Shown here one piece after another: positions 43,911 to 52,291 of a DNA stretch of 64,000 nt (the first letter of the stretch is position 1; each line of letters begins with the position of its first letter). The DNA is from Desulfobacterales bacterium (lineage in GTDB: Bacteria; Desulfobacterota; Desulfobacteria; Desulfobacterales; JAHDSC01), in NCBI GenBank assembly GCA_016931455.1, contig JAFGES010000060.1, positions 1 to 64,000 on the forward strand. The letters are read 5' to 3'. A model generated the notes under the pieces. The model was not told the origin of the DNA, did not search any database, and worked only from the letters and a program-made list of their open reading frames with translations. The position numbers and the translations under genes were made by a program.

Positions 43911-43984
43911 TGGGAGGTCGTTCAGCGGTAGGACTGCGGACTCTGACTCCGCCAACCAAGGTTCGAATCCTTGCCTCCCAGCCA
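43911..43984 (+). tRNA. tRNA-Gln (anticodon CUG)
   Basis: The acceptor arms TGGGAGG and CCTCCCA pair perfectly and the CCA end is encoded. The anticodon stem GCGGA/TCCGC encloses the loop CTCTGAC, giving anticodon CTG for Gln codon CAG. The T-arm has the usual GTTCGAAT. The T at position 1 pairing with A is consistent with bacterial tRNA-Gln. It lies between gltX and glnS. Confidence 0.93.
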
Positions 43985-43995
43985 TGAAATATCAA

Positions 43996-44035
43996 AGGCT
44001 TAATCCGTTTTTTTTAGATTAAGCCTCTTTATTTT
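43996..44035 (+). terminator. Intrinsic terminator after tRNA-Gln
   Basis: AGGCTTAATC (43996-44005) pairs with GATTAAGCCT (44017-44026), and CTTTATTTT follows. It ends the tRNA transcript and, being symmetrical, may also act on the convergent glnS transcript. Confidence 0.8.
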
Positions 44036-44059
44036 GACCTCAAGATGTTGTAATGTAAT

Positions 44060-45757
44060 TTAGTTTTCCGATTTCCGTACGATTTTAGCCCAGGAATCAC
44101 GCAATGTGACTGTTCGATTGAACACAAGTTTCCCTTCGGATGAATCAATGGGATCAACATAAAAATAGCCGAGCCGTTCAAACTGGTAACGGCTGCCGAG
44201 CGCAATATTTTTAAGACTGGGTTCAACCTTGCATGAGGTTAAGGTCTGCAAGGCGTTTGGATTCAAATAAGATTTAAAATCAAGTCCTTGCTTTTCATCG
44301 AGGGGATTTGCGGTAACGAAAAGTCGCTCATAGAGACGAACTTGGGCATCAAGCGAGTGGTCGGCGGAAACCCAATGCAATGTTCCCTTGACCTTTCGCC
44401 CGTCCGGCGACCAGCCTCCTTTGGTTCGAGGGTCATAGGAACAGTGCAGTTCAACCACTTGACCGGTTTTTTCATCCTTAACCACTTTTTCACATTTTAT
44501 ATAATATCCATATCGCAACCTTACTTCTCGACCTGGGGCCAGGCGAAAAAATTTTTTCGGTGGAGCTTCACAAAAATCTTCCTCTTCGATGTAAAGTACA
44601 CGTGAAAATGGAATCTTCCGAGACCCCATATTGGGATCTTCAGGATTGTTTATCGCTTCCAACTCTTCAACTTGGTTTTCCGGGTAGTTGTCGATTACAA
44701 CCTTCAGCGGGCGTAGGACCGCCATTGCCCGAGGCGCGCGCTTATTCAAATCTTCACGAATGCAGTGTTCGAGCAGCGCTACATCGACAATGCTATCCCT
44801 TTTGGCCACGCCGATTCGTTCACAAAAATTTCGAATGGACTCCGGCGTGTAGCCCCGCCTTCGGAAACCTGAAATAGTGGGCATCCGTGGATCATCCCAT
44901 CCGCTCACATGCCCTTCCTTTACTAATTCCAATAGCTTTCGTTTACTCATTACCGTATAACTGAGATTGAGGCGTGCAAACTCAATTTGCTGAGGATGGT
45001 ACAAATTCAATTCATTTAGGAACCAGTCATAAAGGGGGCGATGATCTTCAAATTCCAGGGTACAAATCGAATGCGTAATTTTTTCAATGGAATCCGAAAT
45101 ACAGTGGGCAAAGTCGTACATGGGATAAATACACCATTTATCACCTGTTCGATGATGGGTTGCCTGCAATATGCGATACATAACCGGATCCCGCATATTT
45201 AAATTAGCCGATACCATATCGATCTTTGCTCGAAGAACGCGAGAACCATCTTTGAATTCCCCTGCCCGCATGCGCTGAAATAGGTCAAAATTTTCTTCAA
45301 CCGAACGTCCTCGATAGGGACTGTCCTTGCCCGGCTGGGTCAAGGTGCCGCGGTATTCTCGGATTTCTTCGGCACTTAAGTCGTCTACATACGCTTTTCC
45401 TTTTTTAATCAGCTGCACGGCGCACTCGTATAGTTTCTCGAAGTAATCGGATGCATAGTACAGCCGATCTTCCCAATCGAATCCAAGCCACCTGACATCT
45501 GATTTTATCGATTCGATATATTCAATCTCCTCCTTGCTTGGATTGGTATCGTCGAAGCGCAGATTACAATGGCTCCCGTACTCAGCGGCAAGTCCGAAAT
45601 TAAGACAGATGGATTTTGCATGTCCGATATGCAGGTACCCATTGGGTTCCGGTGGAAAACGGGTTACAACTCGGCCATTATACTTATTTGTCTTAATATC
45701 TTCTTCAATAATCGTTCGAATAAAATTCGAAGGGGGTGTAGACTCTTTTGCAAACAT
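44060..45757 (-). CDS. glnS: Glutaminyl-tRNA synthetase
   Basis: Class I synthetase that directly charges tRNA-Gln. Motifs are [30 protein letters not shown] (HIGH motif), [14 protein letters not shown], the KMSKS-type [11 protein letters not shown] and [19 protein letters not shown]. The two C-terminal beta-barrels follow (for example [15 protein letters not shown]). ATG at 45757 yields the normal MFAKES start; ten extra codons upstream are not conserved-looking. The 565 residues match GlnRS. It converges on the adjacent tRNA-Gln gene. Confidence 0.95.
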
Positions 45758-45942
45758 ATACCTGAACCTTTCGACAAATACTCTCAATGTAAGTTGACTT
45801 TAACCGCTGATTATTTTTTTTAACATAAATTTTTAAGAGAAGTAAACACGCTTTTTCATCTTTTATTATAAAGATACGGATTATATGTTTGATACGTTCG
45901 AATGAATAATAAGGTAATTCCAATGAAGGCGGGAAAGTTGGA

Positions 45943-48285
45943 TTAGGGTCGCACGGCCCGTACAGCACCCAGTTGTCGGCAGTCTTTTTGATCTTTGTTC
46001 CAAGATGTTTCTTTTTGGGAGGACACAACATCAACAACCTTACTCCAACCATCTGAATAGCAAGCGTAATTTTCAGATGTCCAGTACCACACCGGCTCTT
46101 TTGATTCTACCGATGGGAAAAAAGGCTTACGTTTATAAATTTTCTCTAGTTCACCGACAGTAGGCAAACGCCAGTCATTATATCCGCCGGTTCGTAAACT
46201 TTTTACGTATTGAAGAGCGAATTCATAGTCTATTAATCTTTTAAGTTCAAGATTTGAATCCAACATACACCACACCAAACCCGTTCGCGTGTCAGTAATC
46301 GTGCCGTCTTTTTTTTCAACAAATATTCCACCGGCTGACTTGAGTAGGGCCCTTAATCTTTCTTTTTCCTTTGCTTTTCTGTCTAGATCCTCAAGATTTT
46401 GTATTTTGGCCAATTCGCTATTCAATTTTTTTTTCAAAGATGTATTCGGATAGGCTTTCAAATAGTCTAAATAAATCTGTTTTGCAGCCTCATAATGATT
46501 GCCTTTATGTTCTGCTTTTAACATCAAATTAGCAAGTATCTTTTGTTCGTATAGTTTTTTTTGAAATGAAGCCTGCAGGCTCTTTATTTCTTCCGCATGT
46601 TGACTGGAATCATAAATTTTAATAAAATTATCGCAAAGTTGGGCACAAATTTTCCATTTTTCCTGTTTTCCATAAAAAAATATTTTCTCCTTTAAAAAAA
46701 TATAATATTCTTCCTGCATATCCGCAATGAATTGATTAACTTTATCTCGGTATTTTCCCTTTGGGTGATTATTGAGATATTCCATATAAACTGCAATTTT
46801 TTCTCCACTATCGAAGTCAATGGCCGTATTTAATTTTTCATAATCTCTATCATCGGATCGAACCGATATGTCCTCCATTTTACTGCTAATTTTAGCTTTA
46901 TAAATACCATTTGGATATTTTTCTAAATACTGTTTACAAACAGCTGTCGCTTCTGTGTAATTATTCGCTGTACACAATATGTCAGCTCTATGAAGAAGTG
47001 ATTTATAATCCCTTTCCTCAATTATATTTTGAATTTCAATTATCATTTTTTCCGCCTTTAAGGCATAGCTGCCTTCACTATAGGAATCTGAAAACTTTTT
47101 TATTATACTTATCTTTTCTTCTAGTACGTTCTGATTATCGACTTCTACCAAAAGGCGTTGATATTCTTTTTTTTCATGTTGAGATTTAACTGCCCACACA
47201 ATTGTAGCTGTAATGACAACCGTAATGATAACGGTTGCGAAAATTGCAGTAGTCGGCAATCTGAAATGCTTTTTCGTTTTTTCCGTTTCTATGTTCCATT
47301 TTTTTTCACGGCAATATTCTTTAATATATTGACAGGCCTCATCACGATCCATTCCGAATTTAACAGCTGCTTTAACAAGGGCTTCAAAGTATTCCGTACG
47401 AATCTTACCATCCATTCCCGCAACTTCAATATCCGAATTGAGTTCATCCAGATGTGAACGGGCTATGCTTATATTATAGGCATTACGACTCTCTTGTGTC
47501 TTGAAAACCGCTATACACTGTCCAACTAAAATACCACTTGCAGTGACAACGGCATCCTTTTTTATAATTTTAAGAAGTTCCGTCTCTTTTTCTTTTGTTC
47601 GTTTTTGAATGGCTTCGAGACTGGAGCTATTGGAGAGTCCCAAAAAATCATAAAGTGATGATTTGCCGACAATTTTTAGGTTCGCATGAATAACCTTTTC
47701 AATGGATTTATCAAGTTGATGGAATTGGGTAGAATCTACCTTGTAATTTTTTTTGATCGGACAAGTGATTCGTTTGCGAATCTCATCTTCGCTCATTGTA
47801 TGAAGCTTGGCCAATTTCGCAATTTCTTCCTCGGCAATGAAACCTTTACTCATGCGGATTTCGATCTGCTTGTCGATTCGGCTGTATTTTTCTTTTAGCT
47901 TAGCATTAATTCGGTCTCGAATCTTTTTTTCAGAAACAGAATGTAACTTAGCCAGCTTGAAGACCTCCTCATCCGTGATGAAACCTTTACTCATGCGGAT
48001 TTCAAGATGTCTATCGATTTGTAAATATTTTTGTTTGACTTTATTTTGAAATTGTATCTTTGCTTGGCGGGCTTCATTTGGGCGTAGGCTTGGATCAAGC
48101 ATGACTCTCCGGATTTCCGGAATCAAATCAATATAATGCTTAGCCAAAACAGCCTTTGTGGGATGATTGCGATAGCGACTCCATTCGGCTTGCTTTTTCT
48201 TAATTGCCTCCTCTATTTTTTTTTGATCCGACTCTGGTGGATTAACCGAAAGTTCCAGAACCTGATAGAAGTTTTCTCTTTCCAT
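45943..48285 (-). CDS. Large membrane protein with J-like domains, tandem repeat and DUF1566/Lcl C-terminus
   Basis: I do not know a named family for the whole 780 residues. Visible in order: a J-like helical domain (about 1-70) beginning NFYQVLELSVNPPESD, without HPD; two 47-residue-spaced repeats (about 90-126 and 137-173), each with EIRMSKGFI and LAKLH; a second J-like domain (about 208-275) with LYDFLGLSNSSSLEAI and KDAVVTASG; a transmembrane helix (about 346-366); a helical, TPR- or coiled-coil-like stretch; and a C-terminal DUF1566 (Lcl) domain with TDTRTGLVWCML, GGYNDWRLPTVGELEKIY and YWTSENY. It follows the Hsp70 gene by 45 bases, so it is probably that chaperone's membrane-bound partner, with the C-terminal domain outside the membrane. 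Confidence 0.75.
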   Translation of the reverse strand: MERENFYQVLELSVNPPESDQKKIEEAIKKKQAEWSRYRNHPTKAVLAKHYIDLIPEIRRVMLDPSLRPNEARQAKIQFQNKVKQKYLQIDRHLEIRMSKGFITDEEVFKLAKLHSVSEKKIRDRINAKLKEKYSRIDKQIEIRMSKGFIAEEEIAKLAKLHTMSEDEIRKRITCPIKKNYKVDSTQFHQLDKSIEKVIHANLKIVGKSSLYDFLGLSNSSSLEAIQKRTKEKETELLKIIKKDAVVTASGILVGQCIAVFKTQESRNAYNISIARSHLDELNSDIEVAGMDGKIRTEYFEALVKAAVKFGMDRDEACQYIKEYCREKKWNIETEKTKKHFRLPTTAIFATVIITVVITATIVWAVKSQHEKKEYQRLLVEVDNQNVLEEKISIIKKFSDSYSEGSYALKAEKMIIEIQNIIEERDYKSLLHRADILCTANNYTEATAVCKQYLEKYPNGIYKAKISSKMEDISVRSDDRDYEKLNTAIDFDSGEKIAVYMEYLNNHPKGKYRDKVNQFIADMQEEYYIFLKEKIFFYGKQEKWKICAQLCDNFIKIYDSSQHAEEIKSLQASFQKKLYEQKILANLMLKAEHKGNHYEAAKQIYLDYLKAYPNTSLKKKLNSELAKIQNLEDLDRKAKEKERLRALLKSAGGIFVEKKDGTITDTRTGLVWCMLDSNLELKRLIDYEFALQYVKSLRTGGYNDWRLPTVGELEKIYKRKPFFPSVESKEPVWYWTSENYACYSDGWSKVVDVVSSQKETSWNKDQKDCRQLGAVRAVRP
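47837..48003 (-). repeat. Internal duplication within the J-like protein gene
   Basis: A 26-base stretch at 47837-47862 recurs unchanged at 47978-48003, exactly 141 bases (47 codons) away. It encodes the EIRMSKGFI core of two protein repeats. The flanking codons have diverged, which suggests either selection on this motif or gene conversion. Confidence 0.85.
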
Positions 48286-48330
48286 AATCTAATTTTATCC
48301 TAATACTCTCAATCATACTCCTTTCATACT

Positions 48331-49995
48331 TTAATGGATAACAAGGCTTTGACTTCGAGTTTTTGCTTCTTCAAATTCTTCACCCTGAATAAAAGATTTT
48401 GTTTCGATGGCAACTGCAACAGTACGTAACTCACTGGTCTCAACAGCATTAATTTGCAGGCGACCCTCCGGATTCATTTTAAAAGAGATTTCAATCGGCA
48501 AATCAACCGGCAAACCTGTAGGCAAATTTAGTATAGCCGTTCCTATTTCGATTGAATTTTCAGCCTGAACAGTTTCTGCACTGGATTCATTTTCCATTAT
48601 ACGAATCAATACTGTTTTCTGGTCGGGAATCGCTGTATAAAAATGTTTTTTGGCATCCACCGGTAAAGCCGTATTTCTCAGTATAAGGTTGAAAACGAGT
48701 TCTTCATTATGTTGGTTGCGTACCACAACGCCAAAGCTCTTGCTTGCCACATCTTTAATTTTAACCATGGAACGCTCTAAATAAGGAAGTGTGTAACCCG
48801 TATCATCAGCCATTTGCTGGACGACTTCTTTGACGATATCTTCAGGTGTCGACTCAAGATCGTCATAAATTTGATCAAGGCTTTTACTTGTTCTTTTTGC
48901 AATTCGTTTGATCAGTCCATCGTTGAGGGAAAGTTTCCAACCATAAATTGCAGCACCTTTTGCTACCGCTTCATCAGGGTCAAACATCTTCGGCTCTATG
49001 GAAAACTCCTCTTTAATACGATCAACAACTTGAGGCATCCGTGTAGAGCCACCGACTAAGATAATTTCATCAAAACGCTTATATCCCTTTTTCGCGGCTT
49101 CTTTCAAGATTTCATGGGTCAAAGCAATGGTTCTCTCGATTAAATCGCGTGTAATTTCTTCAAACTTTTCCCGTTTTAATTCAACCTTAACCCTTTCCCC
49201 GCCATGGGTTATGGAAATAGGAGTTTTTTCTCTCTGACTCATTATTTTTTTTGACTTCTCAGCAGAAAGCTGAAGATCTTGACAGGTATCAGGATCTTCA
49301 AGAATGTCCTCTTCTATTCCGGTCTTATTTTTAAATTCCTCTACCAAATTCGTTACAATGCGGTCATCCCAGTCTTTACCGCCTAGATTATGATCGCCCC
49401 CCGCACAAATTACCTCAATGGAATCCGGTTGAATATCAATCATCGTTATATCAAAGGTGCCGCCTCCAAGATCATAAACCAGAACAACCCGACTTTCGGA
49501 AAACTCGGTAGTGCCGTATGCAATGGCCGCTGCAGTAGGTTCATTAATAATTTGACGAACATTAAAGCCTGCAATTTCACCGGCCTTCCGGGTTGCCTCA
49601 CGCTCATTAATGCCGAAATAAGCAGGGCAGGTGATGACGATATCTGAGATTTTTTCACCCAACTTATACTCCGCATCCTGTACAAGCTTTCGTATAATAT
49701 AACTTGAAATCTCCTCTGCCCGATAAGCTTTGGAATTATATTCAAAAGCGAAATTGGGATCACCCATTGACCGTTTCACAAAACTGACAACTTCGCATGG
49801 GTATAATTTAGCACTTTCCTTGGCGACATCACCGACAACAATACTTTTCCCATCAAAAAAAACAACTGAGGGTGTTACTCGTTGATTTTCCGCGTTGGGT
49901 ACAACAACCGCTTTACCATATTCATCGACATATGCAATCGATGAATATGTGGTTCCTAAATCAATTCCAAAAATCCTCTTCATCTGCTCACCCAT
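48331..49995 (-). CDS. Non-canonical Hsp70 (DnaK-like) chaperone
   Basis: ATP-dependent chaperone of 554 residues. The nucleotide-binding domain is complete: IFGIDLGTTYSSIAYV (phosphate 1), VLVYDLGGGTFDITMI (phosphate 2), IINEPTAAAIAYG (connect) and ILVGGSTRMPQVVDRI (adenosine). A roughly 50-residue insert rich in Asp/Glu follows near residue 355, and the usual DVxPLSLGIET linker is replaced by DVASKSFGVVVRN. The substrate-binding beta-domain is present but there is no room for the C-terminal helical lid (DnaK is about 640 residues). GAGGAG precedes the ATG. It sits 13 bases after the GrpE-like gene and before the J-like protein, so it is an accessory Hsp70 system, not the housekeeping DnaK. 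Confidence 0.92.
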   Translation of the reverse strand: MGEQMKRIFGIDLGTTYSSIAYVDEYGKAVVVPNAENQRVTPSVVFFDGKSIVVGDVAKESAKLYPCEVVSFVKRSMGDPNFAFEYNSKAYRAEEISSYIIRKLVQDAEYKLGEKISDIVITCPAYFGINEREATRKAGEIAGFNVRQIINEPTAAAIAYGTTEFSESRVVLVYDLGGGTFDITMIDIQPDSIEVICAGGDHNLGGKDWDDRIVTNLVEEFKNKTGIEEDILEDPDTCQDLQLSAEKSKKIMSQREKTPISITHGGERVKVELKREKFEEITRDLIERTIALTHEILKEAAKKGYKRFDEIILVGGSTRMPQVVDRIKEEFSIEPKMFDPDEAVAKGAAIYGWKLSLNDGLIKRIAKRTSKSLDQIYDDLESTPEDIVKEVVQQMADDTGYTLPYLERSMVKIKDVASKSFGVVVRNQHNEELVFNLILRNTALPVDAKKHFYTAIPDQKTVLIRIMENESSAETVQAENSIEIGTAILNLPTGLPVDLPIEISFKMNPEGRLQINAVETSELRTVAVAIETKSFIQGEEFEEAKTRSQSLVIH

Positions 49996-50008
49996 GGGAT
50001 CTCCTCAT

Positions 50009-50725
50009 TTATACTTCAATTGGGGCTAATATATAGGAATAAACCGCCACCATTTCAGGCCGAATCACTTTTCCATCCCATTCGTAACCCGGACGCAAAC
50101 TTTCAGCAACGGTTTTGTCTTTGGACTTATCTGCAGTTTCAATCGTTTTCATCACCCTTTGGCAACCCGGATCGAACGTAGCTTTGTTGCAAGTAAATGG
50201 TTTAACGCCTTGCCAGTAAAATAAATCTTCTAAATCCGAAGGTATATTTTCAAATACTTTGAGCAACTTTTCCAGATCGATTGCAGAGGCCTCTTTAGAA
50301 CGATAATGCTCCACCAACTTTCTTATATCATCAATAATTTTTATCACATCCATAATAAAGGATTTCAGGTATTTTTTGACGATATCTTTTTTATACTCCT
50401 GAAGCTCTTGATGGAGCTGATCAATTATTTTATCTTTATGGGCATCATATTTTAATTTGCTCTGAAATTCCCGTTGAAGGCTGCTCAGCTGTTCTTGAAT
50501 TTGCTCCATTTTTAAGATTATCGGTTTCGTGACCTCCTTCGTAGAAGCCGCTAAGCCTTCTTTTGTTTCTATTTCTTGTAACCTTTCGTCCGGATTCAAT
50601 ATGGCATCATCTCCCTGTATATTAGTGCTCACGCCGGATTCAGACGTTATAGGATCGGATTTAATCTTGGCAAGCTCCTTAATCGGAATACCAAAGTTAA
50701 ATTCTTCGTCTTCCATTTCATCCAT
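50009..50725 (-). CDS. GrpE-like nucleotide exchange factor
   Basis: A 238-residue protein with a disordered acidic N-terminus (1-70), a long coiled coil (about 75-120, MEQIQEQLSSLQREFQSKLK and onward), a helical bundle, and a C-terminal beta wing with ATFDPGCQRVM and LRPGYEWDGKVIRPEMVAVY, which match the GrpE signature pattern. It is divergent from housekeeping GrpE. It presumably releases ADP from the adjacent Hsp70. The gene overlaps nothing, but lies only 13 bases from the Hsp70 gene. Confidence 0.82.
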   Translation of the reverse strand: MDEMEDEEFNFGIPIKELAKIKSDPITSESGVSTNIQGDDAILNPDERLQEIETKEGLAASTKEVTKPIILKMEQIQEQLSSLQREFQSKLKYDAHKDKIIDQLHQELQEYKKDIVKKYLKSFIMDVIKIIDDIRKLVEHYRSKEASAIDLEKLLKVFENIPSDLEDLFYWQGVKPFTCNKATFDPGCQRVMKTIETADKSKDKTVAESLRPGYEWDGKVIRPEMVAVYSYILAPIEV

Positions 50726-50956
50726 TTAAAAGATTACTCCATATCTAAGGTTCTGACTTTACAATTGCTTCATAACTTTGGTATCGACATTTTTAACAAA
50801 TACTTTAATGCTTGTATCTCGCACAATAAAGGCGAATCTTAGCATAAGTTTTAATACGAAAGATTTTTCAAATTTTGAAGTGAATTTTTATGGAGAAATA
50901 AGCGGTATCGGCTGCAATTTATAATTGAATATTGTGTTGGTTGTATGTTGGGATGT

Positions 50957-52291
50957 TTAAAAAAGCGATTTTATATTAGTAACCAAAAAAACAGCGTTTG
51001 ATCGGCTTCCTGGTTTTTCTGTGTAATCATTGAGCGTTAACATAGCAAAAAGGCTTTGGATATCATTTATAACATTATTTTCTTCAAATATAAACTTTTG
51101 GCTGTCATGGCTTGAATCAAAATTTTTTTTTATCTCCTGAACCATTTTATGGAATGGCGAAGGTTCCAGAATTTGCTGTGCCTTATTAAGAATACTCGCA
51201 ATAAATATTTTGAAGCTCTTTAAGAGAAATATGCGACCATCTTCAAAACCTTTAAAAGATTCCAACGCTTCTAAAACTTTATGAATATTTGTTTCAATAG
51301 GAGTATTGGGGTGAAAATTTTCGAGCAACTTTTTTTGTTGGGGAGATAGCTCCGATTTACATCCATTAATGAGGGCAAATGCCCATCTCTTAACTTCTAT
51401 TTCATGATATTTTTTAATCTGATCTCTTGATAAAGGTATCGGTTTCGAACTCCATTCATCAATAACGGTAAACGTCCATCTCCCGGCCTCATTTAAAAAA
51501 TGTCTGTAAATGACGCCCGTGACCGCATAATATTGTTTAATTATCTCGGAATAACCGTTTTCTACTTCTTTATTGACGAAATCAATTTCTTCGTTTTTTT
51601 CAATAAGGCCATATGAAATCAAAGAATATAATACCTTATATACGGTAAAATCATCATAGCCGCTTTCATTCATTAATTGTCTAACAGTCCGTTTACCATC
51701 AACAAGCGTCAAAATCCGCCATTCATCTGCATTGAATTTAATTTCTTTTTTATCTTGATTGCTTTGAGAAATTTTAAATATCAATCTGTCATTGGTAATT
51801 TGCTTGGATATAAGCGACATTTCATCAACACGTCTTGTTGCTTCCAAAACGATGTTCATAATGTTTAAGGGAGTAACCACCATACCATTTAAATTAAGCT
51901 TGGCATCTTTATACTCAAAGCTCCCTTTTTCCCATAAAAACAGATCAAATATAATATCTTCAGCCTGTTTATAAATAATTTCTTTTAATCTTTCTTTAGA
52001 AATATAGCCCTGAACAACCATAATTTCACCTAATGCCAGCTTTTTCTCTTTCGCTAAAGCCAAGCAGGTGTTTAGTTGTTCAGAGGAAATTATCCCCTTG
52101 TTTCGTAAAAGATAACCGAGCCGAGCCTCTTTTTTAGATCCGGTGGCATATATTACGGCGCCATGCTTCATGAAAATTTTAACCTCATTTTCATCCCTGA
52201 TAAGTCGCAACACACCTGTCTTTTTGTCATTGCATAATAGCTGTAAAATGCTTGCGAGAAAAGAGGTCTCGAAATTACCTTTAAGATGCAT
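50957..52291 (-). CDS. PATAN (DUF4388) domain protein with winged helix
   Basis: A 444-residue cytoplasmic protein. Residues 1-140 are a DUF4388/PATAN domain (LKGNFETSFLASILQLLCND, IFMKHGAVIYATG, LGEIMVVQGYISKERL). Residues about 185-235 look like a winged helix (WRILTLVDGKRTVRQLMNES, then SLISYGLIE). The C-terminal 200 residues are helical and unrecognised. PATAN proteins act in signalling, for example with response regulators in cyanobacteria. Its place 231 bases ahead of the GrpE-like gene suggests control of, or coupling to, the Hsp70 module. This is inference. Confidence 0.8.
   Translation of the reverse strand: MHLKGNFETSFLASILQLLCNDKKTGVLRLIRDENEVKIFMKHGAVIYATGSKKEARLGYLLRNKGIISSEQLNTCLALAKEKKLALGEIMVVQGYISKERLKEIIYKQAEDIIFDLFLWEKGSFEYKDAKLNLNGMVVTPLNIMNIVLEATRRVDEMSLISKQITNDRLIFKISQSNQDKKEIKFNADEWRILTLVDGKRTVRQLMNESGYDDFTVYKVLYSLISYGLIEKNEEIDFVNKEVENGYSEIIKQYYAVTGVIYRHFLNEAGRWTFTVIDEWSSKPIPLSRDQIKKYHEIEVKRWAFALINGCKSELSPQQKKLLENFHPNTPIETNIHKVLEALESFKGFEDGRIFLLKSFKIFIASILNKAQQILEPSPFHKMVQEIKKNFDSSHDSQKFIFEENNVINDIQSLFAMLTLNDYTEKPGSRSNAVFLVTNIKSLF

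Follow-up and report, generated by a model that had tools for sequence, protein, structure and literature searches.

A lid-less Hsp70, a divergent GrpE and a J-like membrane protein encoded together in Desulfobacterales, and their kinship with GAP1-N2 GTPase systems

To our knowledge, Hsp70s and J proteins are thought of as a promiscuous network, within which the aspartate of the J-domain HPD motif and Arg167 of Hsp70 are near-universal. HscA and HscB form a dedicated chaperone pair for IscU, and J-like proteins of the Pam16 type dock to Hsp70 or inhibit it. The contact between Asp35 of DnaJ, which belongs to the HPD motif, and Arg167 of DnaK is critical to J-Hsp70 pairing, and the D35N variant of DnaJ rescues the inactive DnaK R167A (PMC13012618). 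In Myxococcus xanthus, the PilZ-DnaK chaperones CsdK1 and CsdK2 are specialised Hsp70s that each serve one client only (PMC10313047). Additionally, GAP1-N2 GTPase loci, predicted to be conflict systems, include a theme of HSP70, GrpE and DnaJ-FNIII (Kaur et al. 2020, eLife, PMC7159879). In this article, an operon is described from a stretch of 64,000 nucleotides (the window) of a Desulfobacterales bacterium, contig JAFGES010000060.1, which encodes a divergent GrpE, an Hsp70 lacking the helical lid, and a membrane protein, here termed J-Lcl, that joins J-like domains to an Lcl_C (DUF1566) domain; a gene for a PATAN (DUF4388) protein lies upstream.

A conserved three-gene unit and its kinship with GAP1-N2 systems

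The conserved unit consists of three genes, grpE, hsp70 and J-Lcl, and extends across about 16 families of one order. Of the 58 genomes surveyed in this order, 16 encode a member of the Hsp70 family at 65-78% identity, mostly one per family, with the remaining Hsp70s of the survey at about 50% identity or below over the matched part. A search of a 247-genome sample of the phylum (E < 1e-150) added two more carriers within the order, G093 and G189, and did not find the family in the rest of that sample. The three genes cluster at 17-19 loci with their order kept and unrelated flanking genes, a clustering far beyond chance; most of the genomes are drafts, and several loci are cut off at contig ends. 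The dedicated membrane-tethered Hsp70/GrpE/J-like module proposed in an earlier note on this DNA is thus well supported by an order kept across many families, while the fourth member of that proposal, the PATAN gene, adjoins the operon in only 3 of about 17 genomes (the closest ones, upstream) and lies within about 1 kb in 2 more. Clustering of all operon neighbours revealed no fourth conserved partner, with PATAN at 5 loci and other genes (antisense shadow ORFs aside) in no more than three. A profile of J-like domain 1 matched 6 of 297 phylum genomes, all from this order; five of these also encode the Hsp70, and G326, the sixth, lay outside the Hsp70 search set, so that among genomes covered by both searches the domain was detected only where this Hsp70 occurs. 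The distance matrices of GrpE, Hsp70 and J-Lcl correlate at r 0.67-0.72, a value not corrected for phylogeny, which shared descent alone could yield.

The closest described relatives are found inside GAP1-N2 loci. The locus of Bifidobacterium criceti (L037), which surfaced in a contig search with the single window Hsp70 (the patterns being too specific for the order) and served as the key outgroup, encodes in order NERD/FtsK, a double-GTPase, GrpE, Hsp70, Hsp70-vWA, a J-like/zinc ribbon/FNIII protein, a GTPase and GAP1-N2. Within the order, the locus G007:C499 (12000-23978, L054) presents an Hsp70 of the same family followed by Hsp70-vWA, a J-like/zinc ribbon/FNIII protein, a sub-threshold double-GTPase match and GAP1-N2, and is probably continued by contig C956 of that genome, which holds a GrpE of this family and the start of an Hsp70. 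GAP1-N2 is otherwise rare in the order (2 of 58 genomes). Against the family profile, the J-like region gives E 6e-69 for G007:C499 and E 3e-7 for B. criceti, and the B. criceti GrpE aligns with the family by hhalign at E 8e-19; the B. criceti Hsp70 is sister to the family in the tree and shares both its insertion and its loss of the lid. Judged by this homology, the module either arose from the Hsp70/GrpE/J core of GAP1-N2 systems or has a common ancestor with it.

The two arrangements have in common homologous GrpE, Hsp70 and J-like cytoplasmic regions and the gene order grpE, hsp70, J-like, whereas the window operon lacks the GTPase, GAP1, Hsp70-vWA, zinc ribbon and FNIII parts and has its J-like region joined to TM-TPR-Lcl (a transmembrane segment, a TPR-like region and Lcl_C). 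The window genome holds no GAP1-N2 (PF20013), and no double-GTPase gene is among the operon neighbours. On sequence grounds, the operon is a membrane-tethered, GTPase-free variant of a predicted GAP1-N2 system, in which the core is shared and the receptor part is new. Because this core also occurs inside GAP1-N2 loci, the operon is not without precedent, and its designation as an undescribed system proved too strong, the core being common to the HSP70 branch of those systems (Kaur et al. 2020, PMC7159879).

More distant comparisons concern other chaperone sets. A plasmid of Rhodococcus pseudokoreensis (NZ_CP070617.1, L115:8007-13995) carries a cluster of a lid-less Hsp70, a J-TPR-TM protein, GrpE and an FtsK-like protein. 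It resembles the window operon in its lid-less Hsp70, adjacent GrpE and J protein with TPR and TM, and differs in the retention of Arg167, an HPN loop, the lack of a pre-linker insertion and of Lcl, and the linked FtsK. TniB/TniQ-type transposition genes lie a few kilobases from this cluster. A Streptomyces plasmid locus (L116) was considered as a further cousin and rejected, as it encodes an ordinary DnaK with lid; a plasmid search with the cytoplasmic part of J-Lcl gave no match. CsdK1 and CsdK2 are likewise specialised Hsp70s tied to c-di-GMP and to a dedicated client, but have the c-di-GMP domain fused to the Hsp70 and lack a J protein in the membrane. Lcl of Legionella pneumophila, which binds glycosaminoglycans and whose Lcl_C fold is C-type-lectin-like (PMC11162425), shares the DUF1566/Lcl_C domain with J-Lcl but is a secreted collagen-like adhesin without chaperone parts. 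With DnaK/DnaJ/GrpE the operon shares three activities by homology, together with ATP-site residues and peptide pocket; it differs in an Hsp70 without lid, with a linker insertion and Gln167, and in a membrane-bound J protein without HPD. Since the window genome encodes a separate set of the canonical kind, comprising DnaK (G000:C106), GrpE and several J proteins, the operon is considered an accessory chaperone set. The canonical GrpE match beside that DnaK (G000:C106:14219-14821) contains one in-frame TGA. Additionally, the same genome encodes two neighbouring divergent Hsp70-like proteins of another class (L003 and L004, G000:C82; 609 and >866 aa). A search for dsrA yielded no true dsrA gene.

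The Hsp70 and its J-like partner

The Hsp70 family is monophyletic (support 99/99), and the window protein matches PF00012 at 359 bits. In alignment to E. coli DnaK, whose numbering is used here, the phosphate-binding and catalytic residues K70, E171, T199, D201 and others are intact, and across 19 orthologues nearly all ATP-site residues examined are invariant, with the exception of N13, which is mostly Tyr; by its residues, the protein is thus predicted to be ATPase-competent. The hydrophobic pocket of the beta domain is also retained (F426, Q433, V436, I438, I472). The lid, for which the earlier note had seen no room, is indeed missing in 19 of 19 orthologues, and a feature which that note had missed is an insertion before the linker, 48-59 residues long in all family members versus 9 in DnaK. 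The equivalent of Arg167 is Gln in all 19, while the arginine is kept in the window genome's own DnaK and in the other lid-bearing DnaK-type Hsp70s compared. Elsewhere in the order, four Hsp70-like matches stand in tandem on one strand (G007:C25:1129-10121).

The first 345 residues of J-Lcl comprise two J-like domains with helical repeats between them, followed by the transmembrane segment, a TPR-like region and Lcl_C. Their description as HPD-less J-like domains is upheld with the aid of a bridging homologue from actinobacteria: the window protein itself has no PF00226 match at E < 1 in Pfam, and NCBIfam and PADLOC likewise gave no DnaJ match in the J-like region. In hhalign comparisons, both domains align collinearly with DnaJ, with scores exceeding all 200 column shuffles, and their weak PDB profile matches are topped by J domains. 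The bridging Rhodococcus protein P0002 is matched by window J-like domain 1 at E=5e-7, itself scores 35.2 bits with PF00226 against a cut-off of 27.8, and is encoded beside a lid-less Hsp70 and GrpE. The predicted helix order of the J part, taken from a weak model, also fits a J domain, and the assignment of the window domains to the J family is supported by these four results. A hydropathy peak at the transmembrane position is present in every J-Lcl orthologue that covers the region, and in most of them positive charge is more abundant ahead of the segment than behind it, from which the J-like domains are predicted to be cytoplasmic and the TPR-Lcl region to be outside.

HPD is absent from J-like domain 1 in 18 of 18 proteins, where NHPxK is invariant. 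The HPT within it could be read as HPD with one substitution, which is possible, but a gap-free alignment sets W-S-R-x under HPD, and the claim is therefore limited to the absence of HPD. Because Gln167 occurs in 19 of 19 Hsp70s and HPD is lost from 18 of 18 J-like 1 domains, a private Hsp70-J pair is suggested; both sides of the D35-R167 contact are altered in every family genome in which both can be read, and the B. criceti relative combines Ala167 with the lack of HPD.

GrpE, the PATAN protein and the exchange of the cytoplasmic half

The window GrpE matches PF01025, the family of a coiled coil plus a beta wing, at 71.5 bits against a cut-off of 25.8. In G012, the GrpE bears a Pfam PAS domain at its N-terminus (L048:3659-4741), and similar N-terminal extensions are found on the GrpE of G007, G032 and G022 (L047, L049, L052); a PAS-GrpE is possibly a sensor-controlled nucleotide exchange factor. 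The PATAN protein contains an MshE-like c-di-GMP motif (NF053729 of NCBIfam, cut-off 38 bits, score 44.1), a second feature absent from the earlier note, and the tandem MshE-N-like motif exceeds the cut-off in 4 of 5 PATAN neighbours. In lineages that keep this protein, a c-di-GMP input is probable on this evidence.

About 14 genomes that lack this Hsp70 also encode the TM-TPR-Lcl half, and in 13 of the 14 proteins DUF4388 replaces the J-like domains. The two forms share 0 sampled genomes (hypergeometric P about 0.008, phylogeny ignored). Most PATAN-TM-TPR-Lcl proteins (L055-L067 and L070) bear an extra N-terminal domain of unassigned kind before PATAN, and nothing recurrent was found among the neighbours of their genes. 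These fusions offer an independent link between PATAN and the receptor half; as a fourth subunit, PATAN is only partly supported. Together, the PAS domain on GrpE and this exchange of the receptor's partner indicate a signalling role.

The four ORFs proposed for the window are all present on the minus strand (Table 1), in the transcription order PATAN, GrpE, Hsp70, J-Lcl with intergenic gaps of 231, 13 and 45 bases, and each has a Pfam score above its curated cut-off (DUF4388 107 bits, GrpE 71.5, HSP70 359, Lcl_C 54.8). A promoter and terminator scan found sites no more frequent than in shuffles. Beside the operon stand genes for tRNA-Gln and for glutaminyl-tRNA synthetase (43911-45787); in G046, a PATAN-TM-TPR-Lcl gene (L061) also neighbours that synthetase.

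Table 1. Coordinates of the operon features in the window
Feature	Position	Strand	Description	Basis
J-Lcl	45943..48285	minus	780-aa single-pass membrane protein; J-like 1, helical repeats, J-like 2, helical domain, TM, TPR-like, Lcl_C	ORF, Lcl_C match, orthologues of like architecture
J-like domain 1	48070..48285	minus	residues 1-72; no HPD (NHPTK)	
J-like domain 2	47458..47670	minus	residues 206-276; no HPD, ends R..YD/N	
Transmembrane segment, single	47188..47244	minus	residues 348-366; N-terminus predicted inside	hydropathy; net positive charge precedes
Lcl_C / DUF1566 C-type-lectin-like domain	45994..46305	minus	predicted extracytoplasmic	fold per PMC11162425
Lid-less Hsp70	48331..49995	minus	554 aa	PF00012, alignment to DnaK
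Hsp70 Gln148 codon (= DnaK Arg167)	49552..49554	minus		alignment to DnaK
Hsp70 insertion	48769..48927	minus	~50 residues, junction of ATPase domain and linker	family alignment
Hsp70 substrate-binding beta domain	48334..48750	minus	no lid	family alignment
Divergent GrpE	50009..50725	minus	238 aa; GrpE domain = residues 72-228	PF01025
PATAN (DUF4388) protein	50957..52291	minus	444 aa; MshE-like c-di-GMP motif residues 57-109	weak winged-helix match

Proposed function and alternatives

With a probability of roughly one half, the operon is read here as a private Hsp70 switch that would be tethered to the inner membrane and sense the envelope, rather than as a general folding machine. The TPR-Lcl region outside may sense an envelope or surface ligand, and the signal would be carried across the membrane to the J-like domains, by which the lid-less Hsp70 would be recruited and gated. 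Rewiring of the interface at Hsp70 position 167 and at the HPD position would avoid cross-talk with DnaK/DnaJ, GrpE would reset the Hsp70 cycle, in some relatives with a PAS sensor upon it, and the PATAN protein would probably supply the c-di-GMP input where it is kept. Because the Hsp70 has no lid, it would hold clients briefly, which would suit the assembling, holding or switching of one partner over bulk refolding. A more specific version, put forward tentatively, describes a transmembrane receptor in which a lectin-like sensor would gate the private Hsp70 ATPase via degenerate J domains, the interface being insulated through Arg167 and the HPD aspartate having been lost as a pair, with sister lineages using the same receptor with PATAN output.

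Several observations weigh against the reading of the operon as a private switch. The Rhodococcus cousin retains Arg167 with an HPN loop, and the two changes are therefore not strictly coupled; the J loop can be aligned in two ways, and the descent of NHPxK from HPD depends on the choice. The AlphaFold structure models are single-sequence and weak, at pLDDT 56 for the J part and 38 for the Hsp70, which makes the latter useless; a fold search with the J-part model (Foldseek, VIA) gave J domains only among weak matches. Clustering of all neighbours found no client or output gene conserved with the operon. Hsp70 homologues without their neighbours, named in the earlier note as a reason to abandon a dedicated system, do occur, in a mild form: G038, a draft assembly of 1,020 contigs, carries grpE-hsp70 but no J-Lcl, with no J start in the 521 bases downstream, and G053 has hsp70-J-Lcl with only a canonical GrpE, the dedicated grpE being missing.

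Among the alternatives, the J-like domains might be non-functional as J domains and merely dock or inhibit the Hsp70 in the Pam16-type manner, with canonical DnaJ driving it. The lack of HPD in all J-like domains, the Gln167 of the Hsp70 and the canonical DnaJ encoded in the genome agree with this proposal, which is nevertheless considered rather doubtful, as the loss of Arg167 should weaken the action of DnaJ on this Hsp70 (PMC13012618).

Somewhat less probable is a chaperone devoted to assembling a single envelope structure or client at the inner membrane, acting as HscA/HscB do on IscU, in which J-Lcl would be a scaffold and Lcl structural or glycan-binding. The own GrpE and J partner of this Hsp70, its retained peptide pocket in the beta domain, and the precedent of the single-client CsdK1/2 of M. 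xanthus (PMC10313047) are in its favour, but no client gene is conserved beside the operon, and the receptor half is also paired with PATAN in place of J domains, for which reason sensing fits better than scaffolding.

A conflict system (anti-phage or contact-dependent), in which a slimmed GAP1-N2 arrangement would use the Hsp70/J switch to set a threshold and the Lcl membrane protein as sensor or effector, is unlikely: the core adjoins Hsp70-vWA, double-GTPase and GAP1-N2 in B. criceti and G007:C499, such loci are predicted conflict systems (PMC7159879), and the lid-less Hsp70/J-TPR-TM/GrpE cousin on the Rhodococcus plasmid has transposition genes nearby, but the window genome has no GAP1-N2, no PADLOC model matched beyond chance, the operon is single-copy and sits among housekeeping genes in the window with no recurrent effector or mobile gene found by neighbour clustering around its loci, and the role of GAP1-N2 systems in conflict is itself a prediction.

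As a private, envelope-sensing Hsp70 switch, the operon would bring an envelope-facing receptor into connection with the predicted GAP1-N2 conflict systems, and its three-gene form lets the role of the GAP1-N2 Hsp70 core be tested without GTPases and effectors. If the pairing is true, a natural Hsp70/J pair lacking both contact residues throughout the family members examined would show how cells build an insulated Hsp70 circuit, and the Hsp70 and its J-like partner would provide an orthogonal pair for experiments.

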